From Eutreptiella sp. 'Long Island Sound 2002' (taxonomy: Eukaryota > Euglenozoa > Euglenophyceae > Eutreptiales > Eutreptiaceae): 64,000 nucleotides of DNA. Below the pieces are notes generated by a model. The model was not told the DNA's origin, made no database searches, and saw nothing but the letters and a program-made list of their open reading frames with translations. Of this stretch, positions 3,566 through 49,979 are shown piece after piece; position 1 is the stretch's first letter, and every line of letters starts with the position of its first letter. The stretch spans positions 54,867,995 to 54,931,994 of the forward strand of contig OZ038378.1 in assembly GCA_964036045.1 (NCBI GenBank). Direction: 5' to 3'. The position numbers and the translations under genes were made by a program.

Positions 3566-3858
3566 CGAGAACCCTAAAGGAAAAGGCGCACTTGGTCACT
3601 AAGGTTTTAACATTTGTACAAGGGGGTTTGGCACAATAATCCGAAGCCGACTGATGTGGATTTCATGCATACGATGAGTGTGGTGGGATATATTAACATT
3701 GAAGTGAAGCACCTACTGAGCGAATGCTGCCCGGTGGGCCTGGCGCGGCACCGAAGAAGCAAGCAATTGTTGGTCTGTGGTCCGTCTTTCCATGCCTCTG
3801 CATGTCATAGGGCAATCAAGGCTTTCGCCTTTTGGCGAATCACAACATTCAACCCAAA

Positions 3859-5052
3859 ATGCACCCACCTCTTCGCTACTTGTTGTACAGTGTTTGTAAA
3901 TTTCGCCCCCGCCCAACCTCCTTGACACACATTGACACTTGGCTACAACCGCGCAGAATAGATGATGTGTGGGACAAAGAGAGTATGCACTACAATGCAT
4001 ACATGGCGGAACTGTTTCCCAGCAGGCGACAGTTTTATGTGCTGCAGCGACTTGCGGATCCGGATGCGGATGCGTTGATTGAGTTGTGCACGATGCACTG
4101 GCAAGGCGGATGGGAACTAGGTGACGTGGTGTGCGGGGATGAGACCGTGGTCCCCCACAAGGGGTTGTTTGTCATCCGGCAGTTCATACCGCGCAAGCCT
4201 CACCCCACCGGTGTGAAACTGTACGCGTTGTGCGACGCACAAAGCCATTACATTTGGCATGTGTATTTGTACCGTGGTGCAGCCCCTCGTGTGGGTCCGG
4301 AGTCCCGGAGCCGGTTTGCAGGACACTACAATGCGTTTGAGATTGTGCAACTTTGGAATGATGTGACTCCACCCGGAAAGGTGCTTGTGGCGGATTCATT
4401 CTTTGGGTCTCATGATGCGGCGGCGATGCTAAGTGCACAAGAGCGTCCGTTCTTGATGCTCACTTCCACAAGTGCTTTGGTGCAAGATGGGAACGTTGGA
4501 CTAGACCCGGGGGATGTGAACACGGTGGTGCACAAGGAACATCGGTATGCACTCTCGGTATACAAAAACCCCAAAGTGGGGCGCAAGCCGGCAAAGGTGG
4601 TACCACTACTAACCAATTGCCTAACCGGAGGTTCGCTCCCACACCGAAGTGGACGATACCACCTACCGGGGATAATTGCCAACTACCGTAGGTTTGCCCC
4701 GGGGGTGGATACGTTTAACCAAATGTGCTTACAACACCGGGAAGAGCACCGGTTTCAATCATGGTGGAAGGCACTTGGGGGGATGGTGTTAAGGATAGCG
4801 GCAACAAATGCATTTACGTCATGCCAAGCGTTGCGTCTTAGTCCGGGGGGTGAAACAATGTTTGACTGGCAATGGAGGTTGATGAGATACATGTTTCCGG
4901 CAAGGCAAATTCAGGTGGTGGACAAGCATGTACCAATAGTGGTTGGGAAGCGGGGCTTTTGTGTACATTGTGGGATGGGCACCACCCGATACAAGTGCAA
5001 AGCATGTGGGTGCTATCTACACGTTGAATGCTTTGCGGACCATCATGAATGA
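3859..5052 (+). pseudogene. 5'-truncated second copy of the piggyBac-like transposase
   Basis: From 3,949 on the sequence repeats the first transposase from its codon 87 to the same TGA stop, including all three catalytic aspartates and the C-terminal Cys/His domain. The first 86 residues are gone. They are replaced by about 30 in-frame codons of former 3' flanking sequence starting at an ATG at 3,859. This makes a 397-aa chimeric open frame created by the tandem duplication. It has no 5' subterminal repeats of its own. It could still be translated, but is most likely a non-functional by-product. There are no frameshifts. Confidence 0.85.
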
Positions 5053-8233: not shown

Positions 8234-8265
8234 CCCCCCTATGGCAACACACGAACCCGCAGATT

Positions 8266-8392
8266 TTGTGTTGTGTTGTGTTGTGTTGTGTTGTGTTGTG
8301 TTGTGTTGTGTTGTGTTGTGTTGTGTTGTGTTGTGTTGCGTTGTGTTGTGTTGTGTTGTGTTGTGTTGTGTTGTGTTGTGTTGTGTTGTGTT
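8266..8392. repeat. (TTGTG)n pentanucleotide microsatellite
   Basis: About 25 nearly perfect TTGTG units with one TTGCG variant. It is the reverse complement of the (CAACA)n tracts at 8,624-8,698 and 20,384 onward, so the two left tracts could fold on each other across about 230 nt. Long reading frames through it on both strands are artefacts of the repeat. Confidence 0.95.
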
Positions 8393-8623
8393 TGCAATGG
8401 AGACACGCAAAGGTAGTGCAACAATTGCTTGACCACTTATGCACGTATGACATATTGTACCCAAAGACAGCGGGTTCAGTCATCTGTAGCAACCCGAGAG
8501 TGCTCATGCAACATGACACAGGAACCTACAAACCTACAGATTGTCCACAGAATACTCCGACACTTGGTCATACAATTTTTTTGTCATCACCAAATAGGGT
8601 CCCTGACGAGTGTGTTCAAGGGG

Positions 8624-8698
8624 CACAACACAACTCAACTCAACACAACACAACACAACACAACACAACACAACACAACACAACACAACACAACACAA
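8624..8698. repeat. (CAACA)n microsatellite, left part
   Basis: Pentanucleotide run ending exactly where the terminal CCCTGTGTGCGCGC of element P begins. The run resumes at 20,384 right after the other P end, so this is one microsatellite split by insertion. Confidence 0.9.
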
Positions 8699-8856
8699 CC
8701 CTGTGTGCGCGCTACAGGGTATTGCCGCGCGATGGCTCAGTGCGCACTACAAAACTATAGCGCGCAGCATAGCGCGCGCTATGACTCGGGGTCTTGGGTT
8801 TGTAACCCCATGTCCTAATAAGCAGGGCAAAAACGCCTATTTTTCTAAAGTTTCAG

Positions 8857-9140: not shown

Positions 9141-9253
9141 GTATTATTGCGCGCGCTTTGCATGTGACATTGCGCGCACTTCCGCTCATAGCACGAACTT
9201 CGTTGACTTCTGCGCGCGCTACGTCCCCATGTTGCGCGCGCTATTTTACTCAG
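9141..9253 (+). other. intron of P transposase-like gene, carrying GCGCGC repeats
   Basis: GTATTATTGCGCGCG ... TTTTACTCAG. It contains four copies of a TGCGCGC(G/A)CT word in 113 bp. Removing it joins exons at 9,140/9,254 in frame (phase 2). The neighbouring exons lack the word. Confidence 0.6.
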
Positions 9254-9816
9254 GTACAAAGATTTGATTACTTGGACGAGAAGTAAGGTCCCCACACACC
9301 TTTTTTCTCTCCCCTCCTATGCTAGTTTCGCCACAGAATGGAACCAGCTTGCAAGTAGGCAGCATTTAGAGGTTGCCGTGCACACAGATGGGGTCACAGT
9401 CTTTTCGCAGTGGCCCCTGCAGCACTTTTTTGACTATATATTTTCCTTTGATTCCATTGTTTCTAACCTCCAATACCCCAGGGAGTGCCAAGGAGAGCTG
9501 TGGATCATTGTGAGGGGGGATGGGTTGCCTTGTGGGGGGGAATCGTGGTGCCAGATGTCCATTTCCTTTGCCAACCATGGTCACTTGGCAAGGACGTTGT
9601 CCTACCACTGGACTGTTAACGTCGCCCTTTGTGGTGAGAAGTCCACCTCTGTGTTGTCCCAGGTCTGGGCTAACAATCTTGCTTTTCTGCAAAGTGCCCT
9701 TGACACTGGTGTGCTTCCCATCTGGGGTGCATCCAGACGCTGTAGGATTTTCTGCGGTGGGGATAGCCCTTGGCTGCGTCGGTTGTCGGGTGTCACTACA
9801 CATTGGATGGCAGGTA
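9254..9816 (+). CDS. P-element transposase-like gene, exon 2 left part (interrupted by element M)
   Basis: The residues look like a divergent KDZ-type or related DDE/RNase-H-fold transposase. An HTDGVTVF segment leads in, a RGDG..CGG motif is a candidate first acidic residue, and a long alpha/beta stretch leads to FCGGDSPWL, which parallels the TGDGKGM motif of the M transposase. Reading is open until the exact M insertion point (TA at 9,815-9,816). Deleting M plus one TA joins GGT-A to GT-CTG and restores the same frame into 16,929. The part after the junction (YMTWCK) lies where related transposases have a Cys-containing motif. The family assignment is by motif resemblance only. Confidence 0.55.
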
Positions 9817-9852
9817 TGGGATGCAGCGTTCTAGGGCGTGGTGCGGAACCCC
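9817..9852 (+). repeat. element M left terminal inverted repeat
   Basis: 36 bp, identical to the reverse complement of 16,891-16,926. Preceded by target-site TA at 9,815-9,816. The first bases TGGGATGCAG and last bases GGAACCCC are shared, and similarity fades after 9,852. Confidence 0.92.
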
Positions 9853-10004
9853 TAGTTAGAACGCAATTTCTGGAACACCCACCTACCCTCAATTTTGGGG
9901 CAAACCACCTAAAAAAATGGATTCAGCACCCTCAAAAACCCCCCATCCCCTTTCTTTCCCCACATAACCCGCATCATGGGGGTGGTTTTTGGGGGGGGGG
10001 TCAA

Positions 10005-10130
10005 AGAGTTAGAGCACAGTTAGAACAGAGTTAGAACGCAGTTAGAGCACCTTGCTCTAACTAGTTATCGCGCTAGTTATCGCGCGATAACTCAGTTATC
10101 GCGCAGTTATCGCGGGTAGCTATCGCGCAC
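10005..10130. repeat. left subterminal repeats of M
   Basis: Several copies of AGTTAGAACR/AGTTAGAGCAC followed by five or six AGTTATCGCG words. The orientation is mostly opposite to the GCGATAAC blocks near the right end, as expected for subterminal transposase sites. The block lies downstream of the transposase stop at 10,198. Confidence 0.8.
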
Positions 10131-10197
10131 CCCTCCTCCCTCCCTCCCTAGGACAAACAACACAAAACACTTGGCACAAAGCATCTGTGGTCGTTTT

Positions 10198-11856
10198 TCA
10201 TACAAAGTCATCAATGTCTGAGGCCTTGGCTGCCTCCAGTCCCAAAAGCCCTTGCTCCAGGGCGTTCATGGACATGCAATGGTGCATGTGGCGGAGGGAC
10301 ATACTTGGCCTCACCAAAGACCAACCCTTAAAACAATTTTTGAGCCTCCTCTTGTAAGGCCCATGCCGATACTCCGTTGGGATGGAGGAAAACTGAAAAA
10401 TGTTCCTCCATTTCTCGGCAAAAAAGGTGGAATGTGCCAAGCACCAATGGATCCACCTGGTGGGGGACCAACCTGAGTCTCCCCACGCTTTTGAAAATTT
10501 TGTGGTCAACGCACGGTGGCGTTCCACTTGGGTTAGAGTGTACAACTCCCTCACCCTCCAAAGCTCATACAAACCCTCAATGCATTTCACCATGACATGC
10601 ACAACAACCCATAACATAGGTCCCCCAGGGGTCCTCACTGTGGGGACATGCTCTTTGAGGCATTCCACAAATTGCCTTTGGAAGGGGGGGGAGGTTAGGA
10701 AAACTTTGGTGCTGGTTAGATCGAAATCTTTTTCTGTGGCCCTCGAGGCCGAAGGGAGGCGTTCCCTAAGAGGGATGCCTGCGGTCTCATCCTTGAGGGC
10801 TTGTTTGAAGGCCTGCAAAGCTGCAAGAGCTTGGGCCTTACCAGGGGTACTAGGGGGGAGGGCCTGGAGGGTGGTCTCAATGCGCTTTGCAATGCCGTTT
10901 AGGATGCGGCATGCTGCATGTTGGTAGTCCCCCGGCCGCCTATCAGGGGTCACACTTCTCAAGAATGACCCCCATCTTGAGGTGGACTCCACCCCCATTT
11001 GCTCAACAATCCCATTGGGGTCTTTGCACAACCAACACTTAGACCCAGCCCCCCCCATTGCTTGCATCCCCTTCCCATCCCCTGTCAAAATGACAGTGCA
11101 AGTCAAAAATTGGTTTTGAAAGAGGACAACGTCCTCTTCCACATCCCTCACCTCTTGGTTGAGGTTGGCGGAGATGTCAAGGCTTCTCAAAAAAGCCTGT
11201 TCATCCCCGCCATCCATGCAAAACCATGAGGCCCATAGCTTCACCTTCGAAGCATATTTTGCCCCCCCCCATACATTAACCCATACATCCGCACGGGTGG
11301 AGGATGCCTTCCACAAGGAAGTCGCATCAACTGAAATAACAATAATGGCAACGCCACTAGGGGGGGGTTTCCCAATAACTCGGGCCATAGATATTGCATT
11401 TTGCACAATTGATTGCAAAGGCACATGGGCAGCTGCCCTATTGCGGCCTGTGGTAGACTTTACAATGGTGGTTTGGGGAAAGTAGGGCATGATCCGTTGC
11501 CGAACGGTCCTTAGGTCCCGTTGTGTGCAACGGCGGGGCATTCGCAAAAGGGCCCGTTGGGAGAGATGCATGCTGCATGCCATGCGTAGCATGCTCAGGG
11601 CCTCATGCTCCTGAGCTGTTAATGCAAGATGGCCGCCAAGTGGGCCAGACAGGGCAGTGCACGCCCCACCACTTAAACAAACTTCGCGTTTGGTGTTGGT
11701 GCCACACACGACGTCTGGGTCACCCAATAGAACTCGCACCAGCCGCTGAACCGCCTTCAAACGCCGCCGCCGGGCCTTGGGGCACTGCAGATCGGTGTAC
11801 CGCCGCAGGTTGGCTGTGTTGAGAGCCCGCAGGGCCTCATTGACAGCATTGTCCAT
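10198..11856 (-). CDS. KDZ-like DDE transposase (552 aa)
   Basis: Predicted nuclear transposase of element M. Motifs in order: D177 in a VISVDATSLW strand, followed by the K..LW..W element; D260 in LTGDGKGMQAMGG; C274-x2-C277 (KCWLCK) just after it; and E495 in PTEYRHGPYKRR with a following H and K. This spacing, with a Cys pair after the second Asp and an E..H..K helix far downstream, is characteristic of the Kyakuja-Dileera-Zisupton group. The N-terminal 100 residues are basic. I chose the ATG at 11,856. The frame is open a little further upstream without an ATG, and a CAG at 11,871 could be a splice acceptor. It ends in TGA, with no frameshift seen. It is the first minus-strand gene from the left end, separated from the oxygenase gene by repeats. 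Confidence 0.8.
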   Translation of the reverse strand: MDNAVNEALRALNTANLRRYTDLQCPKARRRRLKAVQRLVRVLLGDPDVVCGTNTKREVCLSGGACTALSGPLGGHLALTAQEHEALSMLRMACSMHLSQRALLRMPRRCTQRDLRTVRQRIMPYFPQTTIVKSTTGRNRAAAHVPLQSIVQNAISMARVIGKPPPSGVAIIVISVDATSLWKASSTRADVWVNVWGGAKYASKVKLWASWFCMDGGDEQAFLRSLDISANLNQEVRDVEEDVVLFQNQFLTCTVILTGDGKGMQAMGGAGSKCWLCKDPNGIVEQMGVESTSRWGSFLRSVTPDRRPGDYQHAACRILNGIAKRIETTLQALPPSTPGKAQALAALQAFKQALKDETAGIPLRERLPSASRATEKDFDLTSTKVFLTSPPFQRQFVECLKEHVPTVRTPGGPMLWVVVHVMVKCIEGLYELWRVRELYTLTQVERHRALTTKFSKAWGDSGWSPTRWIHWCLAHSTFFAEKWRNIFQFSSIPTEYRHGPYKRRLKNCFKGWSLVRPSMSLRHMHHCMSMNALEQGLLGLEAAKASDIDDFV

Positions 11857-11909
11857 GAAGAATAAGAGGACCTGGGCGCGAAATGAGGGAGGGTTTTGAA
11901 GCAAGGGCC

Positions 11910-12115
11910 CAAAAAACACACGCGATAACCCACGCGATAACCCCCGCGATAACTAGGTTATCGCGCGATAACCCCCGCGATAACCCCCCGCGATAACTAG
12001 TTAGAGCGCGATAACCCCCCGCGATAACTAGTTAGAGCACCCAGTTAGAGCGCGATAACCCCCGCGATAACTAGTTAGAGCAGGGGTTAGTGCGCACTAA
12101 CTGGTGGTGTTAGAG
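11910..12115. repeat. GCGATAAC/TAGTTAGAGC repeat block upstream of the M transposase
   Basis: About ten GCGATAAC words separated mostly by CCC(C)C, with TAGTTATCGC/TAGTTAGAGC interspersed. It lies in the 0.5-kb spacer between the oxygenase gene end (12,348) and the transposase start (11,856), where promoter or 5' untranslated sequence would be. The rest of the spacer (12,116-12,347) shows nothing recognisable. Confidence 0.85.
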
Positions 12116-12347
12116 CAAGCGTTGGGCACCCTAAAACCTTCACAAACGTTGATTTTGCACCCAGGAAACCTTGGAGATGTCAACAATGTGCAGGCACGGG
12201 GTACATGGCGCCACAATCACAAATTCAAATCAGTCACACAGTCTTTTGGATGATTTGGATAGGGTGCCTCTCAAATCAGTCAAATGGACATGTTCCGGGC
12301 TAGACAGTAATAGAAATAGTGAACAATAATCGAATCAGCTGGAGGGG

Positions 12348-12956
12348 TTAGAGGACCCTAAAACCCATGGACAGCAGCTGCTGCCGCCACACAGGCGTGC
12401 AGTGCAGAACCCCCCCCGCACTATAAAAAATCACGCTCCATCGCTCGCCCTCCCATGACAATGGAGCGTGTAGTGCCCTGGTGTTGAACAACACCGGGGC
12501 TTGGGGGGTGGCGGTGCATGCCCAACCCTCCACCGCCCTACCCTTGCACACACGGGTGTGCCGCTTTTTTTCCCTCAAGGAGGGATTCAGCAGGCCACCA
12601 CTCTCCACCCAAAACTCACCCCCCGTGAAAGACCCCACACACACAATAAGCGCCATGGGCGCCCCATCCCGCAAATGGGAGTGGAGGCCCATGGTGTCCG
12701 TCCCTTGGGGGCGAACAATTTGGATGCTACACCATGTGAACCATGGTGGAGCATTGGAGGTGCAATACCCATTGAGGTCTGCTACCAAGGGGGTGAGGGC
12801 AGGCCTGAGGGTAGCAGCGGCCATGTGGGTCGCCCTAAAATTAGAGGGGTTGGGGTTTCCACTTCCCACGAGGCCAAAGTGGCACATGTCCACTTGGGCC
12901 CCATATCGCTCCTCCCCACGAAAAATGCCCTTGGGCAACCCCCTGAGCAAATCCAC
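12348..12956 (-). CDS. TET/JBP-like 2OG-Fe(II) oxygenase domain, in frame with the upstream coiled-coil exon across a TGA
   Basis: Double-stranded beta-helix oxygenase signature. A LHSHL metal motif (His codons 12,681-12,683 and 12,675-12,677) is followed by GSFTGGEFWV, then RALHAPLSWEGERWSV with distal His at 12,468-12,470 and Arg at 12,441-12,443. The GxFxGGxxWV and H-x8-R spacing resembles TET/JBP-type enzymes, which oxidise methylated pyrimidines in DNA. The usual HxD is HxH here, so activity is uncertain. The frame is the same as the exon ending at 12,960: a single TGA (12,960-12,962) separates them and translation would continue with no shift. The earliest own ATG is at about the 24th codon (MCHFGLV), which still keeps the beta-helix. 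It could therefore be the C-terminal part of one large protein or a separate gene. Confidence 0.6.
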   Translation of the reverse strand: MDLLRGLPKGIFRGEERYGAQVDMCHFGLVGSGNPNPSNFRATHMAAATLRPALTPLVADLNGYCTSNAPPWFTWCSIQIVRPQGTDTMGLHSHLRDGAPMALIVCVGSFTGGEFWVESGGLLNPSLREKKRHTRVCKGRAVEGWACTATPQAPVLFNTRALHAPLSWEGERWSVIFYSAGGVLHCTPVWRQQLLSMGFRVL

Positions 12957-12959
12957 TAG

Positions 12960-14168
12960 TCATTGGCTCCCACTCCTACTCCCGCTACCCTGACTCTGCA
13001 ACCCTTGCGGCGCCAGCCCCTGCTGGGCCTGCTGCGCCCCGAAGGAGGCACAGAGGGTGGAGGTGAGGCTGCGCACCTGCGCCTCAGCCACCCCCAAGCG
13101 CTGCCCAAGGTCATCCCCCCTCCTCCGCTGCCCCTCCACCTCCACCCTAAGCTGGGCCACCTCCACCTCCGCCTTCCGCCTCCCCTCCTGGGCCTCCCTC
13201 AGGGCCTCCCTCATCGCCTCCACCTCCTCCCCCCTCTTGGCGGCCAGGTTGAGGGCCTGGTCCAGGGCACGCTGGGTGTTGCCCTGGGCCTTTTCGGCCT
13301 TTGCCAAGGCCGACCTGTGGTCGGCCGACCGACCCTTGGCCAGTGCGGCCTCGACCCCCGTGGCGGCCGCCTGCTCCACCAAAACCTGGCAAGCGTCCGT
13401 CACGTGGGTGGCCACACTGGCCCCCAAGGCCTCCACGTCCAGGGCCTCATGGGGGGGCTGGGCTGCCGCCACCTTTGCCACCTTCGATGGCTTGGGGGAG
13501 GGCTTGGGGGCGGGGGTTTGGCCCTTACCCCTAAGGGGGGGGGGGGCATCCGGCTCAACCACCACCACGTCTGGTCCCCGCTTCGTCTGGCCTTTTCCCG
13601 GCCTTCCCCCCTTGGGTGCATACTGCCGAACCCAATCGGCAGTGGCGTCCCCCACAGAAGGGGGGGGGTCATACCCACCAACCTGGTGGATGTCCCCCCC
13701 CCTGTGCAGCTTCTGCCACACTTCCCTCCCCGTATACTCCCCCTCCCACAAAAAACACACCCTCAAAAGGAAATAAGATTTCCTTTGGGGGGGGTCGCTC
13801 ATCCCAAACAAACACAAAAAAGCCGCAACCGTTTCCCCCTCTGCGGCTTGCGGCCACTTGGCCGTTTCCCCCCCAACCCACACATAGGAGGGGAGGGTGA
13901 GGTTGGTCTTCCTCTCCACCCCCCCCTCCTTCTCTGTGATGGTGACCTGCCGGTACCATCCCGTCCCCCCCATCCTGCAGGCCTCATCCCCAGGCTCCCC
14001 AAACCGCCACGACGCCCCCTCCGGCAGCCTCTTCTCCCCCTCCAGCTCCAACCGGGCCGCCACCGGCTTGGCGGGCCGTGCCCCCGCTGCTGCTGCCGCT
14101 CCGCCCGCTGCGTCGGCTGCCTGGGCGTCGTCCTTGACGAAGATGCGGGGCAGCTGCAAGATGGTGGC
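12960..14168 (-). CDS. double-oxygenase gene, exon 2: BAH-like region plus coiled coil
   Basis: Begins after a strong acceptor (poly-pyrimidine then CAG, complement of 14,169-14,171) and is in frame (phase 0) with exon 1. It has no ATG of its own near the start, so it must be an internal exon. The first 150 residues (SYVWVGGET ... GETVAAFLCLFG ... YFLLRVCFLWEGEYTG ... EVWQKLHRGG) have the rhythm of a BAH chromatin-reader domain; this is a resemblance, not a firm call. A Pro/Lys linker follows. The last 140 residues are Ala/Glu/Arg-rich heptads predicted to form a coiled coil, ending Gln/Ser/Gly-rich at TGA 12,960-12,962. A 46-nt GT...AG pair around the TGA exists but would break the frame. 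Confidence 0.6.
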   Translation of the reverse strand, partial: ATILQLPRIFVKDDAQAADAAGGAAAAAGARPAKPVAARLELEGEKRLPEGASWRFGEPGDEACRMGGTGWYRQVTITEKEGGVERKTNLTLPSYVWVGGETAKWPQAAEGETVAAFLCLFGMSDPPQRKSYFLLRVCFLWEGEYTGREVWQKLHRGGDIHQVGGYDPPPSVGDATADWVRQYAPKGGRPGKGQTKRGPDVVVVEPDAPPPLRGKGQTPAPKPSPKPSKVAKVAAAQPPHEALDVEALGASVATHVTDACQVLVEQAAATGVEAALAKGRSADHRSALAKAEKAQGNTQRALDQALNLAAKRGEEVEAMREALREAQEGRRKAEVEVAQLRVEVEGQRRRGDDLGQRLGVAEAQVRSLTSTLCASFGAQQAQQGLAPQGLQSQGSGSRSGSQ

Positions 14169-14410
14169 CTGAAAAAAACAAAAGAAACAAAAAAAAAACA
14201 CGCGATAACCCGCGCGATAACCCCCGCGATAACTAGGTTATCGCGCGATAACCCCCGCGATAACCCCCCGCGATAACCCCGCGATAACTAGTTAGAACGC
14301 GATAACCTAGCGCGATAACTAGTTAGAGCACCTAGTTAGAACGCGATAACCTAGCGCGATAACTAGTTAGAGCAGGGGTTAGAGCAGGGTGTTGTGGGAG
14401 GTTTTCACAC
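14169..14410 (-). other. intron of the M double-oxygenase gene, filled with GCGATAAC repeats
   Basis: Read on the minus strand the donor is CAG|GTGTGAAAAC and the acceptor TTTTTTTTCAG. The 242-bp intron holds about ten GCGATAAC words and several TAGTTAGAGC words between 14,200 and 14,380. Both splice junctions fall on codon boundaries, so removal joins exon 1 and exon 2 in frame. Confidence 0.7.
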
Positions 14411-16540
14411 CTGGTGACATGGACACATGCCTTGGCCCTCCTTCTTGGCGTCGTCCAGCACCAGGCCCAGCCTCCGCAGCCACACGAAGTCCGTGACGGC
14501 CGCATACTCACCCACCTGCCGCCACTCCACCACCTGGGCCTCCCCCTCCGCCTCAGGGGCCACCCTTGCCACTCCCCCATACAACCCCCTCCTCACCACC
14601 AAAATGGTGCCCGCCGGCACCTTCATCCCAACATGCCCTTGCAGGGTGGGCCAGGGCAGTGCCTCCCCATGGCACACCTTGGCCAAGGGGCACTGATCGG
14701 GGTGGCCTGCGACCGCCCCCGCCTCCTCATTAGTGAGGGGGGCAATCACCTCCCTCCCAACCCCCCACCCCGACAACAAAAAATGCCCTGTGGTTGTTCC
14801 CACCGGGAGCAAGCACTGAGCAGATTGCTCAATGCTGACCCCATTGGGGTCCACCACCACCTCCTCCTCCTCCCCCCCCTCCACCTCCTCCCCCTCCTGG
14901 CATGGCACACAAAGGCCATCTTTGTGGGCGGTGCACAAAATCAGCCGATTGCATCCGTAGCAATTGGCTACCACCTTCCCCCTACACCTAACCGCCCCAT
15001 CACACTGGACTGTCCTGGCCACCCGGCCACCAGGTGCCCCCAGCTGGGGCCTCTTAATGGACTGGGTCACGTGCAGGTTGGGGAATCGAAGATTCCCCCC
15101 CACGGTAAGCTCAATGGCAAAACATGCCATGAGGCGGGGGTGGGACACCCCCGTGGGGGAGGCCTTGGGAATCCCCGACCCCCTGTGGACATCAAGGGCA
15201 TTAAAAAAAAAGGCAGTGCCCCTCTTGAATGGCACAGCCCTCTCCACCCAAGGGTCAGGGAACCCCGAACTGCTGGAGGGCACAAAAAGAAAATGTGACC
15301 CATCCTCCTCCTCATGATTATGGGTTAGCATAATAAGGCAATTGACAATCAATGTGCCTTCAGGAATGGTGTAGGGGGGGGCGTCGCGATGGAGGTGCTG
15401 GGGGGTGTGGTCATAGCTCGAAATTTCGGCCATGTCAAGGATGGTGCAGCTCCATCCAACCCCCCCCACCACAGTCTTCTTCGCCGTCTCAAGCACACGA
15501 TCTGCCACCCTTTTGAGGACTGGCAGATCATGGAGCTTGTGGGGGTTGTGCCTGTGGTGGTTGGCACCCCCATAGTTGCCGTACAATGTACGGCGGGTCC
15601 CAGAATCTTGGGGCCTGCCGACAATGGGGGGGTTCTCATTGAAAATGGGTGCCTTCTCTGAGAGAGGCACCCTATCCAAATCATCCAAAAGACTTTGGAG
15701 CTGCACATCACTCAAAAAATCGTGCTCCAGGAGGTGGTTGACCACCAGCTTCCCCCCCACCGTGAGCACAAGGTCATTGGGGTCCCTATTAAAGGCCCCC
15801 AAGGGCTCGGCGGCAACCACCTCCTCCGCCTCCCCAATAAGGGGGGGTGTTGCCCCAAATGGAAAAAGAATCACCCCCTGCCCCGAAACAATGTTGGGAG
15901 TGGTGACCCCATACCACTCACGCTCCCACTCCCTTGTGGGGCAAAGGGAGTGCATGGGGAGCTTGTTTTCGGGGTCGTCAGTGCAGACCCGGCGGGTGTT
16001 GTGGGTGAGGGGTTGGGGGAACCAACCATCCGACTGCCCCTTCCCCTTACCCGGTCGGATCCTTACCTTCTGGACACTAATCATGAGGGGGTTGTGGGGC
16101 TTCTCCTTCCTCCCCCCAGCCCCCACCCCCCCCGCATCCTCCTCCTCCTCCTCCACTTCCTCCACTTCCTCCTCCTCCTCCTCCTGACCCACATAGAGGG
16201 TCGTCTTCGTCCCCGCACCCTTCTCGGCATGGGCGGTGACGGACTCCACCACCGCGTCCACATCGTCCGGATGAAGCTGGATCAAAAATCCAGCAACCCC
16301 TGGATTTACCTCTAGCAACTCGAAGATGTAGTTGCTGAGAACCAGGGGGTCTCGGTCGTCCGCCATGAAGGGGGACTTATGGACAAGGAGTCCAAAGTCC
16401 ACACCATGTTCAAAGCGGGTCGCCACAGGGCGCCTCACATTGGCATCACCCATCGTAAACCCCTCAGGACCGCCAAGGCGACGGACCCCAAGGAGCTTTT
16501 GATGGTGCTCGCACCAAGCGTGGGCAGCAGCAAGGGCCAT
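14411..16540 (-). CDS. double-oxygenase gene, exon 1: 2OG-Fe(II) oxygenase with acidic tract and Cys-rich region
   Basis: Exon of 710 codons from the ATG at 16,540; an upstream in-frame TTG was not used. The oxygenase core has H384-x-D386 (HLHRD), distal H452 (DVHRG) and the 2-oxoglutarate-binding R469 (HPRLMACFA), the classic non-haem iron dioxygenase set. An acidic Glu run sits near residues 120-140. A Cys cluster (CDGAVRC, CYGC, CTAHKDGLCVPC) at roughly 515-560 may bind zinc. Reading would end in GMCPCHQV and a stop just inside the intron if unspliced; splicing at 14,411 links it to exon 2. The substrate is unknown. Context inside a KDZ-type element suggests modification of nucleic acid or chromatin (inference). 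Confidence 0.72.
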
Positions 16541-16594
16541 TATCAAAGAATACGAAGGCTTTGAGAGCTAAAGCGAAAAGGGGAAACATAAAAT

Positions 16595-16750
16595 GAAGCG
16601 CGATAACCCACGCGATAACCCACGCGATAACTAGTTATCGCGCGATAACCCCCGCGATAACCCCCGCGATAACTAGGTTATCGCGCGATAACCCACGCGA
16701 TAACTAGTGCTCTAACCCCGTTCTAACCCCGCGATAACTAGTTAGAGCAC
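16595..16750. repeat. right subterminal GCGATAAC block of M
   Basis: About nine GCGATAAC words with TAGTTATCGC and TAGTTAGAGC, lying upstream of the oxygenase gene and 140 bp inside the right inverted repeat. It mirrors the left block in opposite orientation. 16,751-16,890 between this block and the inverted repeat has no gene. Confidence 0.85.
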
Positions 16751-16890
16751 ACAAAGATCAAATCGCAAAAAGTGCAAAACGGGCAATATCGAGCAAACAA
16801 TACATGGAAGGCACATTGTTGCATCATAGTGCACCCTTGTAACATGTGAAATTCCGGGTTCCAACCATATTAACAACACCCAAAATTGGG

Positions 16891-16926
16891 GGGGTTCCGC
16901 ACCACGCCCTAGAACGCTGCATCCCA
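16891..16926 (-). repeat. element M right terminal inverted repeat
   Basis: Reverse complement of 9,817-9,852 over all 36 bp, followed by TA at 16,927-16,928, the second copy of the target duplication. Beyond it the P-element exon resumes. Confidence 0.92.
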
Positions 16927-16928
16927 TA

Positions 16929-17122
16929 GTCTGTTCACTTACATGACGTGGTGCAAGTCCCTGGTGTCGCGCCGCATTAAGATGCTCAGGCAGGTTAATG
17001 AGCGTCTGTTCCTGTACTTTGAAGTACCAAGGTGGAATGGCAACTCCAGAAGCAACCTGTGCAATGCACAAAAATTGGCTGACGAGGTTCGGGCATATTT
17101 TGCGGATGAGGAACTGTGGTAG
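16929..17122 (+). CDS. P-element transposase-like gene, exon 2 right part
   Basis: Continues the reading frame of 9,254-9,816 once M and one TA are subtracted. The open frame runs through TYMTWCK, a basic stretch (SRRIKMLRQ) and ADEELW to TAG at 17,120-17,122. Alternatively G|GTAGCG at 17,119 is a donor into a GCGCGC-rich intron. The protein as assembled is short (about 350 aa) for a DDE transposase, so more exons, or degeneration, are possible. Confidence 0.5.
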
Positions 17123-17418
17123 CGCGCGCTATTTGTTTTTTAGCGCGCGCTACATGTTATCTAGTGCGCGCAATGATCACTATCGCGCGCGCTATGCTGT
17201 TTTCAAGCGCCGGAACCCTTGAAATCGCGATATATAGTCGGAAGTAGCGTGCTATGACTACGCACTTAAAGCGTTTGGAATGCATTGATTGGAATTTGGA
17301 ATGCATTGATTTGTTACTTTTGGTCCGTTTGTTTTGGTGCTTTCGATATTTTTGTTACTGCATTTTCCTTTTTGTATTACTGCTGGAACAGGGGTACTTT
17401 AATGTAACCCTCTTGCCC
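17123..17418. repeat. GCGCGC-repeat spacer in P
   Basis: Five GCGCGC(G)CTA-type words between 17,123 and 17,200, then AT-rich sequence with a pyrimidine tract. It probably separates the transposase-like gene from the next gene and may hold its promoter. Confidence 0.6.
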
Positions 17419-38505: not shown

Positions 38506-41500
38506 AGGAGCCCCCACGGGAGTGGGACCTCGGAGGTCTCTCCTCCGAAAATCAGTGGAATCCCCGAGGAATCAGAGGCACATCGGGTGCGGAAGAAGGC
38601 ATCGGAAGAGCCAAAACCACTGAGCTTCGCCACTCCCAACCCCTGGAGCGCCCTGCCAAGGGAAGTACATGTGGGTACGGGACATGGCAAGAAGGAAGGA
38701 GCGACCACGGAGAGCCCCGTGGATGGGCAGGACCAGCCCAAGATCTACACCATCCGTGACCATACCCTTGAAGTCCTGATGCACCCGGACGTGCTAGATA
38801 TTCATGCCGTGAGAGTCGTCCATACGCCTCATGGTGACGAGCGGCAGTTGCACTTGAAAGTGCGAGTACGGTGCGGACGAGAGGAGAAGGTGGTGGATGT
38901 GTTGGTGGATACGGGTGCCCAGGTGAGCCTGGTCCGGAGAGGGTTGTTCAAGGAGGAACTCCTGCAGCCCAGCCGGAGACCGGTCCGCCTGAAGGTCGCC
39001 AACGGAGAGATCATGGGTGGGGGCACCCATGAGGCCACTATCAGTATGGAGTTCTGGGAACATGAGCGCTTGAACCGCCCTGAACTGGCGAAGAGAAGCA
39101 CTCTATCCGGGAACTTCTATGTGGCCGACATTACAGATTGGGATATGATCATGGGGTATGACTTCATGGTGGCAAACGCCTTTGGAGCCCTTCCCCATCG
39201 TGCAACGCTGGTCCGGGAGGATGATGAATGCCTCACATGGCTGTCCACGGACTATGCATGCGGATCATCCCAATGGAATGCTGAGGAAGAGGATCGGATC
39301 GTCCAAGCGGTGCAAGCTGTGGGTGCCAAGTCCAGAGGAGACCGTGGAGTTCAGCTCACGGAGTATGGAATGGCGCCGCAGGTGTATGCCAGGATGATCC
39401 AGACGCTGGGAGCCGAAGCGCCTGAGACGGACGTCTTCGCTTCCCGGGCTGCCCCACTTTTGCCGAAGTGTAGGAGGCATTGGCATCGAGGAGACTCAGC
39501 CTGGCACAGGCATTGGGGTTTGAAGGAGTGGGGGCCCATGTATTGGCATGGCTCCCTGGACAATACCAGACGTACGGTGGAGAAGATCGTCGCGGATAGG
39601 GCGAAGGGGATCCTGGTCATAACCGGCATAGGATCCACCCCATGTCCGCTGGAGGGTCTCAAGTCGACGCTGGACTCCATCACCCTGAACGAGATGTCAT
39701 TCGGGCCACAGGAGGACTTGTTCATCGACGCCAAGGGTGTATCAATGCCCTCCCCGGGTCAAGCGTGGGGTACCAAGGCTTTCCTGGTGGATGGGGCGCA
39801 AGCCGAGCCCACGGGTGATGAAGCATTCATCCGTAGGGTGGAGGCGGTGCCCATGAAGGTCATGTTTGAGCCCAAGGAGGGGACGGATCAGCCTATTGAT
39901 GGCATTGACATCCTGTCCCACTCCGAGATCGACGACGTCGTCAACTACATGCGGATGGGGATGCACGACCGTGTGGCAGCCAAGAAGAGGCAGGCCATGG
40001 TCACATCTCCGCATTGGTGGGATGACAAGATGTTGGTCACCGGCAAGTACGAGAAGGATGAGTTCGTGGCGAGGGTCATGGATCACATCGCAGACCAATA
40101 TGATGGTCCGGTTGGGTCGGACCCGCCGACGTGGGATTTTCCAAGAATGGGGGCCGAGAGCGACAAGAACCAGCCCGATGCCGCAAATTTTCGAAGATTA
40201 TCGGTGGGAAGCGCGCCCCACGACGATGAAGACGGCATATCGGACGAGGAGAAGCCGGACTCGGACCCGGAAGAGGCCTATACCGCAGTGCGGTCGGTTG
40301 TATCGATACCGGAGCAAGCGGCTGAAGAGGCCCAGGAGAACCCGAAGGTCGCCGAGCTGAAGGAGAGGCTGATCAATGCCTATCCGCGGCTATTCAGTGG
40401 CGTCGCCAACAAGAACCCTCCAGATCGTGGGAGGTTTGGCACAAAGAGGATCAAGCTGAAGCCGAACCCCAAGATCTATCGTCATCGGGATTACCAACTT
40501 CAGGGCGATCGGGCCGAGGCCATGAAGAAGCTGTTGGCCGAGTTCATTGAGCGGGGATGGATCGAACCCTCCGACAGTGAGTGGGCCAGCCCAGCCTTCA
40601 TCGTGCCCAAGAAGGAGAAGGGCGAGTGGAGGTTGGTGGTTGATTACAGAGGTTTGAACGAGCAGACCGAGCACGACGCGTACTCGCTTCCCCTGATCGA
40701 CTCCATCCTCCAAAAAACAACAGAAAAAGCGGATTTTCACGGTGTTAGACCTGAAACACGGCTATGGCCAGATGCCGCTACACCCGGACTCCAGGCCCTG
40801 CACAGCGATGTCAATGCCGCTGGGGCGCATGCAGTGGAAAGTGGTGCCTATGGGCGCCAAGAATGGCAACGCCGCTTTCCAGCGCATGATGGAGGACCTA
40901 CTCGGTCCGGTCCGGGACTGTGCCGACCCTTTTGTGGATGACATCATCATCGGGTCCGGCACGGAAAATATGACGGAGGACGAGCTCATCGAAGCGCATG
41001 AGAAGGATCTGCGCCGAGTGCTCAGTGAGCTGGACAAGCACAACATGGTGTGCAAGCCCACCAAAGCCTCACTCTTCTTGAAGGAAGTGGAGTTCGCGGG
41101 TCACGTGGTTAATCACGGGCAATGCCGTCCCATGCCTGGGAAGCTGGCGTCCCTGCACCATTGGGAAAAGCCCCAGACCATCAGCGAACTCCGGTCCTTC
41201 ATGGGGTTCTGCAATTACTATTCGGGCTATGTCCGGATGTATGCAGAACTCTCGGGGCCGCTGCACAAGATGCTGCAGGTGGGCAAGTTCGATGGCCGGA
41301 AGGGGAGCAAGAGGAAGCTTGCCTGGACCCCTGAGGCTGAGGATGCGTTCAACCGCCTGAGGGAGCAACTCCTGGGGCAGTTGGGGCTGTTCCTGGTGGA
41401 CCCGGACAAGGGATTCGTGCTACGAACAGACGCCTCGGACTACGCCGTGGGGGCAGTCCTCGAGCAAGTCCGGGACGACGGGACTCATGTTCCCGTGGCG

Positions 41501-43523
41501 TTTTGGAGCAGGATCCTGGCCGAGGGCCAACGCCGAACATGGACCGCGAGGGAGAAGGAGACATACGCCATTGTATGTGCGCTCAGGAAGTGGTCTGGCC
41601 ACATCGGACTGCAGCCGGTGGTGGTTTGCACGGACCACCAGTCCCTACAGAGCTGGCACAAGGAGCATGTCGACACCCCCTCAGGACCAGCGGCTAGGAG
41701 GGCCCGATGGCACGAGACGTTCGCCAAGTTGGACCTCAGCGTCGTGTACGTCCCAGGGGAAGGACAACACTGTGGCAGATTACCTCAGTCGCTGGGCTTA
41801 CCCCGCGGGCAAGGCGTGGATGGACATATCCAGCCATGGCGACGCCGAGGAGACCGAGGAGGCCAAGCGCATCATCGAGATGGAGAAGGCCATGGAGCAA
41901 GAGAGCGTCAAGTGTTTTGTGGTGATGGCAAACCGTACAGACCTGGCCAAGTTCCGGGGCGCCCGAGTCCAGGCTATTCGAGAGGAAACCCTCGAGCAAT
42001 GGATGGTGGCCCCTGTAGAGCTAGTCAGGTCGGTGCTCACAGAGGACTGGTCGGAAGACTATGCGGCATCCGAGCACTGGAGCAAGTACTGGAATGCCGT
42101 GAGCGCCCCGTCGGACGACGAATGGCCCGAGGGCTCAACCGAGGATGGGGACAGGTTGTTCCTCAAGGACAAGCTGCTGGTGCCCGAGAGCCGAGTGGAG
42201 GAGCTCATTCACCATTGGCACAACGCCCAGCTCATGCACCCTGGCCGAGACAAGATGCAGCAGGACCTCGAGTGGCGTTTCAAGTTCCCTCCGGGGTACT
42301 ACGCCATCCTGGATAGGTACTGCAGCGACTGTGCCGTGTGTCGGGCCACGAAGAGTCCCAACCACTCCACAGCGGGCAACCCGGTGTATACGGCTATACC
42401 GGAGGCCCCTATGCGGTCCGTGGCCATGGATGTATTCGCCATGCCTGAGGTCACTGTGGAAGGAGAGACCTACGACTGTGTCATCCTGGCGGTGGATAGG
42501 CACAGTGGGTATATCGTGGCGGTCCCTGGCAAGAAGTCCAAGAAGAAGGACGAGAAGGACAAGCATGGAGTGGGGCTGCAGGCCAAGACCGTCGCTAATG
42601 CCATGATCAGGCATGGGCTGACGATTTTCGATGTCCCAGCTGTCATCTGCAGCGATCGGGGCAGTCAGTTTGTGGGGACGTGGTTCGAGACGATGTGCAA
42701 GCACATGGGGATTCGGCACGCCAAGACCGTGGCGTACCACAGCCGGTCGAATGGCCGGGCTGAGGTGGCCGGGCGGCAGATGTTCGAAAAGTTCCGCCAG
42801 CTGCACATCGACGAACCGGGCCGGAATTGCTACAATTCGCTGTGGAGAGTACTCCAGGCGTACCATGACCTTCCGGGACCCACTGGACTGTCGCCCCATC
42901 GTATCCTGTTCCTGCGGGATCGAGTGTCACGCACTCTCCCGTGGTTGAACCATGGCAAAGTGGCCCGGGATGCGAACGCTATGATGGCTGAGGCGGACGA
43001 CACGGCGGCCAAGGTGTGCAAAGCACTTCAGGACGAGCATGACAAGAGGGCCAAGTACTTCAAGCAGGGAAAAGTCCAGAAGTATGCTCTCCAAGACACC
43101 GTGTGGGTGGAGCGGCACCACAAGGATGTCCTGTCCAGGCATCGGCAGGCATCTTGGTATGTGCCGGGGGTAATCGCGCGGAAGGTCGGGCAGGATGTGT
43201 ATGCGGTTTGTGTGGGGGATAACAAGATCCTGGACCGCGACCATACCCAGCTTCGTCCCCGAGCACCAGACCCCAGCGGACGTCCCGTCACCTTCGAGTT
43301 CACGGCCTGCGATGTGGACTCGGACGACGAGGGTGAGGACAACGACTTCACCGCCGAGAGGATCCTGGCGGACAAGCCGGACCCGGGGACGCCTGGGGGT
43401 AGGCTTTATAAAGTCCGTTGGAAGGGATTCGCCGCATCCAGGGATTCGTGGGAGCCTCCGAGCAGTTTCGTGCCGAGTTACGCCACGGTCTGGATGGACT
43501 ATCTGAAGAAAAAGAACATTTAG
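38506..43523 (+). pseudogene. element 1 pol: protease, RT, RNase H, integrase, chromodomain (two frameshifts)
   Basis: In frame with gag after TAG 38,503. Aspartic protease VDTGAQ at 38,905-38,922. A linker domain (39,420-39,720, starting DVFASR) resembles the methyltransferase-like module of element 2 but has lost NPPF. Reverse transcriptase has WRLVVDYRGLN (40,627-40,659) and FVDD (40,931-40,942). RNase H has TDASDYA and TDHQS. The integrase zinc HHCC is near 42,200-42,350, and the catalytic D (42,429), D (42,654) and E (42,762) follow. The chromodomain (LYKVRWKGF...DSWEP) is at about 43,345-43,470, before TAG at 43,521. One extra T in a T4 run near 40,734 and one extra G in the run at 41,756-41,759 shift the frame. 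Both are homopolymers, so sequencing error is possible. Confidence 0.9.
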
Positions 43524-46050: not shown

Positions 46051-46122
46051 ACAGTCCCTTGTGACCTTTTGAACCGAACCTGAGAAGAAGTGCAGCACAA
46101 AAAGCTCAACAACAAGTTCATC

Positions 46123-48329
46123 ATGTCCACGCCAAGTGTCAGGACCTGGCCCATCAGAACTGTCCAAGTGCAAATGGGCAGCATGGCCCACCCTATGAGT
46201 GAACCACCTTACCGAGCTCCACAACATCTCAGTGGCGCATCTGGGTCCCAAGGAGATCCACAACGCAGAAGGGCGGAAGAAAATAAAGGCCTTACCACCG
46301 AGGCCTTAGCAGCCCACGGTGGAGACAGCTGCAGTCATCTCCACAGACGTGTAGCTGCCTCAGTATCCAGATCCAACTGTCCGGCTTCATCCTCAACAGC
46401 GATTGAAGGCCCTGAGGAGTATGAGGAACTGAGGAAGAAGATGGATGAATACATCCTACATGAGGAGTACTACAAATCCATTCGTGGAGAAGACGCAGAG
46501 GAGCCATTGGCAGTACATGGATCCAGACCACGTACAGACCTAGGGTCCTACGCGCACTCTGGCCCGCCGTCGGACAGAGCCGAGACTGCATCCCTGCCAA
46601 GACGACCAAGACCTGAGTATCCAAGAGCATGTTGTCCAACCCCAAGGGCTCCCGAAGTGGGCCCGACTCCAGTTGAAGAACAACATCATCCAAGGCCAAT
46701 TTACGGTGCCCTGGACCATACGGCCGAGCTGTTGGCCAAACTCCTGTCTGGATCAGAAGATCCAGATGTGACGGCCCTATCGGAGGCCATTAAGGCTAAA
46801 CTGGGTATTGCTGAACCCTTACCCAAGCCAGAGTTACCCTCTCTCTCTCCAGGACTGAGTACCCTGGCCGAAGATCTTAAGAGATCAAGGGTCTCAAGGC
46901 TGTTGCCTAAGGTCACCTGCCCCAGCCCCTTTCACCCCCGTGCCAGGACAGTGCCTATGGCTGATCTACAGGACGTGCCTGTCACAGAGATTGAGAGAAG
47001 AGGGCTGTCAGCAGTGGCACCTCTTGCCGGCGTGTCGCCTTCAGGCCTAACTCCGGGGGGTGGGAAGACGGGCAGACCTATTGCCCAGGCGAACATCCAG
47101 CCGGAACTGTTGGAGTTCGACCCCAAAAATCTGCCCGAATGGGCAGAAGAATTTGCAGAGTTCCTTTTGCTGACTGGCCAATCCCATGTGGATGTGGCCA
47201 CCAAATGTTCACTGCTGAAACGCTCATGCAAATTTTTTTTTTGCAAAAACAGGTGAAACAGATTGTGAAAACCTGTTCTACCTGGGCAGAGGTACTCCTG
47301 AGGTTGGAGAAAACATTCCCAGTCTATGAGACTGACCTCAGCGTACGCACACAGATCGAGGAGCTACCTATGCTCCCTGAGTTTCCATCCGCTGCGCGAA
47401 TTTCTGAATATGTGTGCGACTTGGAGTACTTGTTTTCGAGGATGAACGTGGGCTCCTACGGAGCCACTGAGCCCCACCTGTGGCTCATGAGTAAGATCCC
47501 CCAACGTACGTGGGATGATTGCCGCTCCACCTCTGAGAGGAAGAGCAGGACCCACTCGTACGATGAACTGGTGGATCTCTTGATTGAGCTAGCTCTTGAG
47601 AGAGAGAATGACTCCCACATGGAGAAATTCCTCAAGAAGCATTTGGGACGAGGTGGTACCCCTACCCCCGAACGTGGCGAAGGGAAAGGGCATAAAAATC
47701 CCACTAACGCCAACCAGAGAGGTGGTAAAGGGAGGGGTAACCTACGTGCCATGAATGAGGTTAAGCCCGATGCAGGTACACCCCCCCTGTTCTACTGCAA
47801 ACCTGTCAATGACAAGGGGGGACCTTGTCATGCCTCTGACTGCGACCTCCGCAGTGGCTGTATGCTGCAGATGAAACGTCAGCAGCATACCAAAGATGGG
47901 GAACCTGTGACCCATCAGGACCATTTCGGGTGTACCATCACCTGTGGTTACTGTGGCAAACGTCGTCACTACGAGGACGAATGCCACATCAAGAAACGCG
48001 AGAGTGACAAACTCAAGCGTCAGGAGGCGGAACGCCAGAAGACCCAAACGCCCGCCAGAAATCCCCCGAATGGGGATAAAGGTGGTAAAGGAGGTGGCAA
48101 GGGGGGAGGCAAAAATGGACCCCCTAACCCGCAGAGGCGCTCATCAGCGCCCGTTGATACACCCACTTCTGCTGCTACACCCGCTCCTGCCGCAGGTGAC
48201 CCCAAGAAGCGCCCCCAAGGGGATAACGCTACCCCTGAGGGGAATAATTCCAAGAAGAGGCGCTTGGCCTGGATGGCCAAGTCCCTCATTGCTGCAGGGG
48301 TGGATGTGAAGTTCCCTGATGAGGAGTAG
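46123..48329 (+). pseudogene. element 2 gag (one frameshift)
   Basis: ATG at 46,123 (MSTPSVRTW) opens an unordered N-terminal half, then a capsid-like helical region (QPELLEFDPKNLPEWAEEFA). At a run of ten T (47,233-47,242) the frame shifts and continues (VKQIVKTCSTWAEVLLRLEK ...) to a canonical zinc knuckle CGYCGKRRHYEDEC and a Gly/Lys-rich basic tail. It ends PDEE-TAG at 48,327-48,329, with the protease following in the same frame. The T10 shift is either a homopolymer error or mutation, or less likely programmed slippage. Confidence 0.8.
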
Positions 48330-49979
48330 GGGGGCGGCTCCGAAGAGGAGGACTTGGTTTTCTGGATCCTCGTGAAAATCGGGGATCAGGTTTTTCGAGC
48401 GGTGCTTGACACCGGTGCAACACTTTGCATAGTGGCCCGGCGCCTGCTAAAGACTTTCAAGAAAACTAAGACCGTGGCCATAAGAGTAGGGGATGGGCGT
48501 ACCATCCATTCCTTGGGGGGGGTCGATGTGACTATATGTCTGGGCGACGAAACCGTGACCCAACACTGCAGAGTGCTGGACACCGACGCCTTTGACATAG
48601 TCATTGGCACCGACTTCCTAAGAAGAAACCTCCAGGTAAAAATGCTGTCCCTCCAGCGCCCCTATTCTTTGCACTGCGACTTTGGCAGTGGGCTATTCTC
48701 CGTACCTTTGGAGCTGTCAGGACGAAAAGAGTCTGGGCTGCGCTACGCATCCAAGACTAACTATGGTACTGAAAACTACCAATTGGCCCGTCACCTTCTT
48801 GAAAATGGACTGGCGGCCCTACAGGTAAACCTGGATGAGATCCAGGTGGAATTGTTTGCGAGCCAACAACAGCACATCATGCAGTTGTACTGCTCGAAAC
48901 AACTGAACAATGCTTTCCGTTTCTTCTGGAAAGCAATGGGCCTAGCGTATGCTAACCCTCCCTTCTCCCTGCTCGCGAAGGTTCTAACCAAAATCGCTTA
49001 TGAGGGAGGAAGGGTTGTTATGTGCACCCCTGACTGGGGCTGCTCTGGTGAACATGCTTTCTGGCGCCGTATGCTAGATCGAATGACCGTGGGAAGAGTG
49101 CAACTCCCCGACAGCCCCATCTACGTGCCTGAGGACTCATACACAGCTATGCAGGCCCCTGAGTGGGCTAGTTTCCTGTCCATCGTCGATGGATCTCTCA
49201 ATCCTGTACCCCTGTGTGACCTAGACCAGGTGCTACTGAAAGAGGTCATGGCCGAAAATCGTGGCCTGACCCTTTATGATCTCAAAAATCGATCTCCTGA
49301 GCACCTATCTGCCACACTTACAGGGTGTGAGTCTCCCGATGACTATCTGGAACATGCAGCTGTAAAAGAGGATGCTGACGACCAACTGTCTGAGATCGCC
49401 AGCACTATTCCTTCTGTTGATCCCAGCTGTGTTGACCTAAAACATAGTGCCTTCCTAGCCCAGCTGTTGCTAGAGGAGGTAGATCTAGAGTCAACCTCTG
49501 AACCCGCTTCCCCTGTTGGGGAGCCAGTACTACACATGCAGCCTATGCACACAGGTGAACCCGTGGCCCGGAGTGCTGATGCTCTGGCGCGGCCTGCTGC
49601 TAATAACATGCCATTGTCTGAGCATGACACTCAGGAACTCTGGCGGCTGTTGTACCTGAAGGCCGAAGGTATTGAGCGCCAAGAGCGGCTGCAATACCTC
49701 AGACAGACCTGGAAATCCTCCGTCTGGTCTGAGGAGGACGATGAGTCCTATACGCTGCCTGATCCTGAGATACCTCTAGTGTATTCTCTGCACTATGGGC
49801 AGCAATGTCCCCCTGAGTGGGACGAGGGTTCTGTGCCTGCCGAAACTGCTGATCGGCAGAAAAAGAAAGAACATGGAAAAAGCAACCTCCATGCTGAGGA
49901 GGATTTCCTTCAGAAACTCGAGAGTCTTAACCTTGACCCCCGCCTGAAGAAACTGCTTATAACCTATGAGGAGGTGTAA
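48330..49979 (+). pseudogene. element 2 pol N-terminal part: protease and methyltransferase-like domain
   Basis: In frame with gag across TAG 48,327. Aspartic protease FRAVLDTGATLC (DTG at 48,408-48,416) and IGTDFL at the domain end. Next comes a domain beginning VELFAS with NPPF at 48,954-48,965 and VVMCTPDWGC, the pattern of an N6-adenine (Dam-like) methyltransferase fold, here probably a degenerate, non-catalytic module. A long acidic linker follows. The frame ends TAA at 49,977, where a shift leads into the reverse transcriptase frame at about 49,966. Confidence 0.75.

Follow-up and report, generated by a model that had tools for sequence, protein, structure and literature searches.

We describe a DNA transposon of the euglenophyte Eutreptiella sp. 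'Long Island Sound 2002', found in a 64,000-nucleotide stretch of contig OZ038378.1 (assembly GCA_964036045.1, positions 54,867,995 to 54,931,994 of the forward strand), hereafter called the window. Our reading, which we hold at a probability of about 0.5, is that of a high-copy transposon combining a transposase of RAG1/Transib-type signature with a predicted 2-oxoglutarate (2OG) oxygenase, whose likely role is to take off or change a silencing mark carried by the element itself. The original prediction, made from the letters of the window without database searches, had proposed a single KDZ-like transposon with one fused gene for two 2OG-Fe(II) oxygenases and a possible chromatin reader. The single transposon and the predicted 2OG gene are supported; the KDZ label is not, and the second TET/JBP domain and the chromatin reader are unproven. 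That the enzyme helps the element to counter silencing is still the best explanation.

Both ends of the element carry 36-bp terminal inverted repeats that agree at 36 of 36 positions and are flanked by TA, as first read (coordinates are listed in Table 1). When the element and one TA are taken out, ...HWMAG is joined to SLFTYMTW... and a single host frame of 267 aa is restored, which fixes the insertion site to the base. The left piece of this host frame has no Pfam match.

The element is a member of a high-copy DNA transposon family. Protein searches, with copies clustered at 90% identity, returned at least 43 clusters for the transposase, at least 33 for exon 1 of the oxygenase gene and 120 for the C-terminal part of the oxygenase protein, nearly all on long contigs; the summed cluster sizes are at least 625, at least 752 and 667, respectively. 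These copy figures are rough, as cluster members may stem from several assemblies; the transposase and exon 1 figures refer to the best-ranked candidates, and fusions are counted in more than one list. Such fusions of exon 1 to the transposase make up 15 of the 24 proteins examined, with 15 different junctions and a constant order and strand, and both genes therefore move together. P0034 was left out of this count, having its transposase match before exon 1 and a weak exon 1 score. The fusions look like internal-deletion copies, and by manual reading no GT-AG splice would account for the junctions in P0001 and P0012. Three transposase matches (P0033, P0037 and P0039, 33–37% identity) lie on contigs of 1.9–3.3 kb, so relatives exist elsewhere; none was found in viral contigs or in prokaryote genome contigs. 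Many copies are decayed. Three clusters of exon 2 plus C-terminal copies (P0154, P0157 and P0164, with 16, 7 and 16 members) have ends resembling a same-strand frame of the element's right terminal region, and are perhaps an amplified rearranged derivative.

The transposase has all the residues named at first (D177, D260, C274 and C277 of a CxxC motif, and E495), and in addition H470-x4-H475, with H-to-H and H-to-E spacing equal to that of RAG1. D, D, H, H, E and both Cys columns are invariant across the window transposase, P0033, P0037 and P0039, and the C(2)C form recurs in P0033 and P0037. A further invariant H, at 314 (numbering of the four-transposase alignment), is a candidate for the third H of the CMCT (CACTA/Transib/RAG1) clade, all of whose members are described as having two C and three H. 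In a structural search the 31 best matches of the transposase model were RAG, BbRAGL or Transib, but the alignments covered only the helical insertion, and the model is of low confidence. Because of the D/D/C(2)C/H(4)H/E motifs with RAG1 spacing, the TA duplication and these structural matches, the evidence points to a CMCT transposase resembling that of ESTA. TA lies within the 2–5 bp of CMCT target duplications and is the duplication of ESTA itself. P0039 has four residues between its cysteines, C(4)C, instead of two; neither a PDB profile search nor Foldseek alone matched the transposase to RAG1 or Transib, the former by sequence; and the termini are TGGG..CCCA, not CA..TG, although CA..TG holds "in most cases" (PMC12730594) and so is not strictly defining.

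The original label, a KDZ (Kyakuja, Dileera, Zisupton) transposon with a TET/JBP enzyme, was considered and rejected. It would account for D, D, E and CxxC, and fungal KDZ elements do carry TET/JBP genes, but the Dileera families described in the cited excerpt duplicate 8 bp and the Kyakuja families 7 bp, the latter without terminal inverted repeats (Kojima, 2025; PMC12730594). The element here duplicates TA, and its H(4)H motif with RAG1 spacing and its RAG/Transib structural matches speak against KDZ as well. Pfam scans gave no match to the KDZ model, which Pfam presumably includes, in 10 transposase members, nor any KDZ or Tet_JBP match in 14 exon 1 and 27 C-terminal members. We regard the original label as very improbable.

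Exon 1 of the minus-strand oxygenase gene holds the iron/2OG motif HxD/H/R foreseen at the outset (H384 and D386 within HRD, H452 and R469). Among 14 aligned members, some decayed or truncated, these four residues are kept in 11, 9, 10 and 8, respectively. The matching Pfam models stay sub-threshold: PhyH at 15.8 bits (cut-off 22) and 2OG-FeII_Oxy_3 at 14.4 bits (cut-off 27), with such matches over the same stretch in 3 and 4 of the 14 members. The Tet_JBP model matched none of the 14; PE-type fungal enzymes are likewise very distant in sequence. Exon 1 is predicted to encode a 2OG oxygenase domain, behind which a Cys/His cluster starts at residue 513; the large database clusters of exon 1 begin at the Met at 16453. 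The boundary of exon 1 reads CAG/GTGTGA and that of exon 2, which starts at 14168, reads ...TTTTTTTCAG/GCC; each is in phase 0. Of the single fused gene proposed originally, exons 1 and 2 would therefore join in phase through the predicted intron, while an in-frame TGA at 12960-12962 separates the third part from them. Of the BAH-like and coiled-coil middle, the BAH-like part found no support, and the structure model of exon 2 predicts a long coiled coil (helices 245-382).

The motif CGCGATAAC occurs 39 times in the window, always within the element and never in coding sequence, and is gathered in four non-coding segments: upstream of the oxygenase gene, in its intron, and on either side of the transposase gene. 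This resembles the layout of Arabidopsis VANC21, for which a 9-bp motif is described, in the excerpts used, as tandem repeats within VANC21 and VANB21 introns and also upstream of VANA21; VANC, an anti-silencing factor encoded by its own element, lowers methylation. As in VANDAL21, tandem repeats of a short motif lie here in an accessory-gene intron and upstream of the transposase. The oxygenase protein is most likely the factor with which the element counters silencing, and it would be guided to the arrays and act on a methyl mark there. Its non-2OG parts, the coiled coil and the Cys/His cluster, would direct it to the CpG-rich CGCGATAAC arrays that precede the two genes, occupy the oxygenase intron and lie close to the two ends. 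At these sites the HxD/H/R domain may oxidise a methyl mark (5-methylcytosine or N6-methyladenine) or a chromatin protein, so that promoters and ends would stay accessible to transcription and to the transposase. A small fraction of ribosomes might read through UGA CUAG and so produce a longer, rarer protein that includes the C-terminal 2OG-like part. A much bolder version seems unlikely as a whole: a RAG1-lineage transposon with two unlike 2OG domains, the second made by programmed UGA CUAG readthrough, steered to 39 CpG-rich sites in its own promoters, intron and ends, and acting in trans to erase silencing from hundreds of copies.

One alternative is that the arrays are transposase-binding sites only, unrelated to the oxygenase, as the subterminal repeats of Spm are sites for transposase binding. 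The arrays near both ends are mostly in opposite orientation (11 repeats on the right; 5 on the left, 4 of them inverted) and also form an inverted pair, I1, but 23 of the 39 repeats are remote from the ends, being placed in the intron or upstream of the transposase gene. We consider this quite possible, though the less favoured use of the arrays. It is also conceivable, though rather unlikely, that the oxygenase acts on protein or RNA, or aids transposition directly, rather than acting on DNA marks. This would suit its closest Pfam models, PhyH and 2OG-FeII_Oxy_3 rather than Tet_JBP; it fits less well with the parallel to VANC, with the TET/JBP genes on fungal transposons, and with a CpG observed/expected ratio of 0.46 in the element outside the arrays against 0.68 in both flanks. 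The arrays reach 1.6–2.0, a value largely accounted for by the CGCGATAAC motif itself, and the TpG/CpA ratio of the element body (1.30) is similar to that of the flanks (1.39 and 1.26). The whole region looks CpG-depleted, the element body more strongly and the arrays not.

Exon 2 stops at the TGA in the context CAA TGA CTA G. UGA CUA G is a stop context of high readthrough in the cited excerpts (PMC4359377; PMC12233894), and TGA is followed by CTAG in 1 of 100 cases on the element's minus strand and in 6 of 2000 on both strands of the window. The frame continues for 203 aa, and this last part of the protein is apparently reachable only by reading past the stop. In 37 of 120 C-terminal clusters, comprising 429 of 667 members, the frame begins at the codon directly behind TGA CTA (P0087, with unrelated residues at its start, is excluded); the Met at these starts would be the gene caller's rendering of GTG, with the stop just upstream in those copies. 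Such starts are spread across the tree, most forks of which are weak.

The principal rival to readthrough takes the stop as the true end, with exon 1 plus exon 2 as the working protein and the 203-aa frame as a hitch-hiking relic of an old nonsense mutation in an amplified lineage. Several results favour it and weigh against our reading. Four divergent singletons (P0077, P0084, P0141 and P0155), not grouped on the tree, have the sense codons R, R, R and W at the stop position; W (TGG) and R (CGA) are one change each from TGA, which can arise from CGA through CpG loss, and many copies are decayed. P0112 also has W there, after unrelated residues. The C-terminal part, moreover, lacks a 2OG family or fold match and has HxH where HxD is expected. 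Against a relic, the frame is open in the large clusters P0067 (69 members) and P0068 (235 members), the starts behind the stop occur across the tree, and the stop context is the leaky one. Furthermore, 24 codons separate the stop from the first ATG of the C-terminal frame, and 22 tested residues of this stretch average 88% identity to the window, as compared with 83% behind it (45 usable rows of 120); in 27 more divergent rows the values are 84% and 77%, and in P0109 both are 65%. An untranslated leader is thus unlikely, since the stretch is as conserved as the sequence behind it. We regard the relic as a serious contender, at somewhat less than even odds. Alternative splicing round the stop, rather than readthrough, seems improbable. 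There are 23 in-frame GT-AG candidates of 18–198 nt across the TGA, among them one of 168 nt ending in TCTAATTTTAG, but the latter would delete the conserved residues right behind the stop, and no candidate has the long T-rich tract of the predicted 242-nt intron.

The C-terminal part had been predicted as a second, TET/JBP-like oxygenase, which remains an unproven resemblance. It contains GSFTGGEFW...ALHAPLSWEGERWS, in a longer form GSFTGGEFWVE...FNTRALHAPLSWEGERWS, a pattern that we take to be reminiscent of 2OG enzymes. At the HxD position, however, it has H-S-H, and 21 aligned rows show HxH in 10, HxD in one (P0128) and other or gapped residues in 10. No 2OG family was matched in 27 members by a program that drops most matches above E 0.1. 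The PDB search gave a WD-repeat protein at E 0.2 only, comparison with the exon 1 profile gave nothing, and a phage tblastn returned a single match at E 7. The structural matches listed for the exon 2/C-terminal model include no 2OG enzyme, and are weakly informative, the predicted local distance difference test (pLDDT) score being mostly below 50 in the C-terminal part.

Transposons carrying TET/JBP genes, ESTA included, are described from fungi in the cited excerpts; complete ones were characterised in 2025, with their function in the life cycle not validated, and CcTET, a related enzyme, oxidises methylated DNA (Kojima, 2025; PMC12730594). The present element shares with ESTA the TA duplication, a RAG1-like transposase with C(2)C and H(3-4)H, and an oxygenase gene on board. 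ESTA, however, carries a PU-type TET/JBP dioxygenase, whereas a long two-exon protein is found here, with a PhyH/Oxy_3-like domain, a coiled coil and, beyond a stop codon, a 2OG-like part. With RAG1, BbRAGL (ProtoRAG) and Transib it shares D, D, C(2)C, H(4)H, E and the RAG1 spacing, and the helical insertion aligns; they duplicate 5 bp, as against TA here, where no RAG2-like partner was seen and the PDB profile search gave no sequence match. What it shares with KDZ elements is the carriage of an oxygenase gene. VANC differs from the protein described here in not being an oxygenase, and the transposase of VANDALs is of MuDR type. Spm of maize, a CACTA-type element, encodes TnpA, which to our knowledge has no oxygenase domain. 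TnpA activates its own element along with DNA demethylation in the cited part of PMC10398659, a further case of activation by an element's own protein.

In the literature searched on transposon-carried oxygenases, we found no element of this architecture. New with respect to that literature are the longer architecture, the stop in a leaky context, for which no search for transposon precedents was made, and the combination of such an array layout with an oxygenase. The original prediction had noted neither the stop codon nor the 39 repeats, and neither the H(4)H motif nor the copy number. To the known cases the element contributes another kind of oxygenase architecture, a transposase with a RAG1-type signature, defined candidate target sites and protein copies by the hundred; with these it would become directly testable whether such enzymes shield the element that encodes them from silencing, and by what means they locate it. 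If the leaky stop is used, it would allow the element to control how much of an accessory domain is made.

Table 1. Features of the transposon and its insertion site (positions in the window)
Feature	Position	Strand	Basis
Whole transposon, 7,110 bp	9817..16926	.	exact terminal inverted repeats; TA on both sides; host frame restored when the element is removed
Left TA target-site duplication	9815..9816	.	sequence
Right TA target-site duplication	16927..16928	.	sequence
Left 36-bp terminal inverted repeat, TGGG at start	9817..9852	+	100% complementary to right end
Right 36-bp terminal inverted repeat	16891..16926	-	inverted-repeat comparison, 36/36 bp
Interrupted host reading frame, 267 aa (pieces 9207-9816 + 16929-17122)	9207..17122	+	empty-site reconstruction
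Transposase, 552 aa	10198..11856	-	residue motifs; RAG/Transib structural matches
Transposase D177	11326-11328	-	sequence
Transposase D260	11077-11079	-	sequence
Transposase E495	10372-10374	-	sequence
Oxygenase exon 1, up to 710 aa: predicted 2OG domain, then Cys/His cluster	14411..16540	-	sequence, sub-threshold family matches
Predicted GT-AG intron, 242 nt, phase 0, long T-rich tract, 12 CGCGATAAC repeats	14169..14410	-	sequence
Oxygenase exon 2, 402 aa, predicted coiled coil	12960..14168	-	sequence, structure model
In-frame continuation behind TGA, 203 aa	12348..12959	-	sequence
Array upstream of oxygenase gene, 11 CGCGATAAC	16599..16738	+	motif count
Array in intron, 12 CGCGATAAC	14201..14363	+	motif count
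Array upstream of transposase, 11 CGCGATAAC	11921..12071	+	motif count
Array downstream of transposase, 5 CGCGATAAC, 4/5 on minus strand	10064..10114	-	motif count

An Rfam scan gave no family at gathering scores, and comparison with PHROGs gave weak, unrelated matches only. Between the C-terminal frame and the transposase, positions 12237-12272 form an inverted near-copy (36 bp, 97%) of oxygenase exon 1 coding sequence at 15662-15697. The host flank at 17120-17200 has TAGCGCGCGCTA-type repeats, which differ from the element's own arrays, and left of the element, at about 8250-8700, long simple repeats appear as CVVLC/TTQHN runs in translated frames. Two plus-strand transposase frames (335-1741 and 3811-5052) match DDE_Tnp_1_7 (E about 1e-21), a model which we take to be of piggyBac type. 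Two Gypsy-like retroelement regions, also on the plus strand (38506-43523 and 46084-52953), match protease, reverse transcriptase, RNase H and integrase, and a chromodomain closes the first of them.
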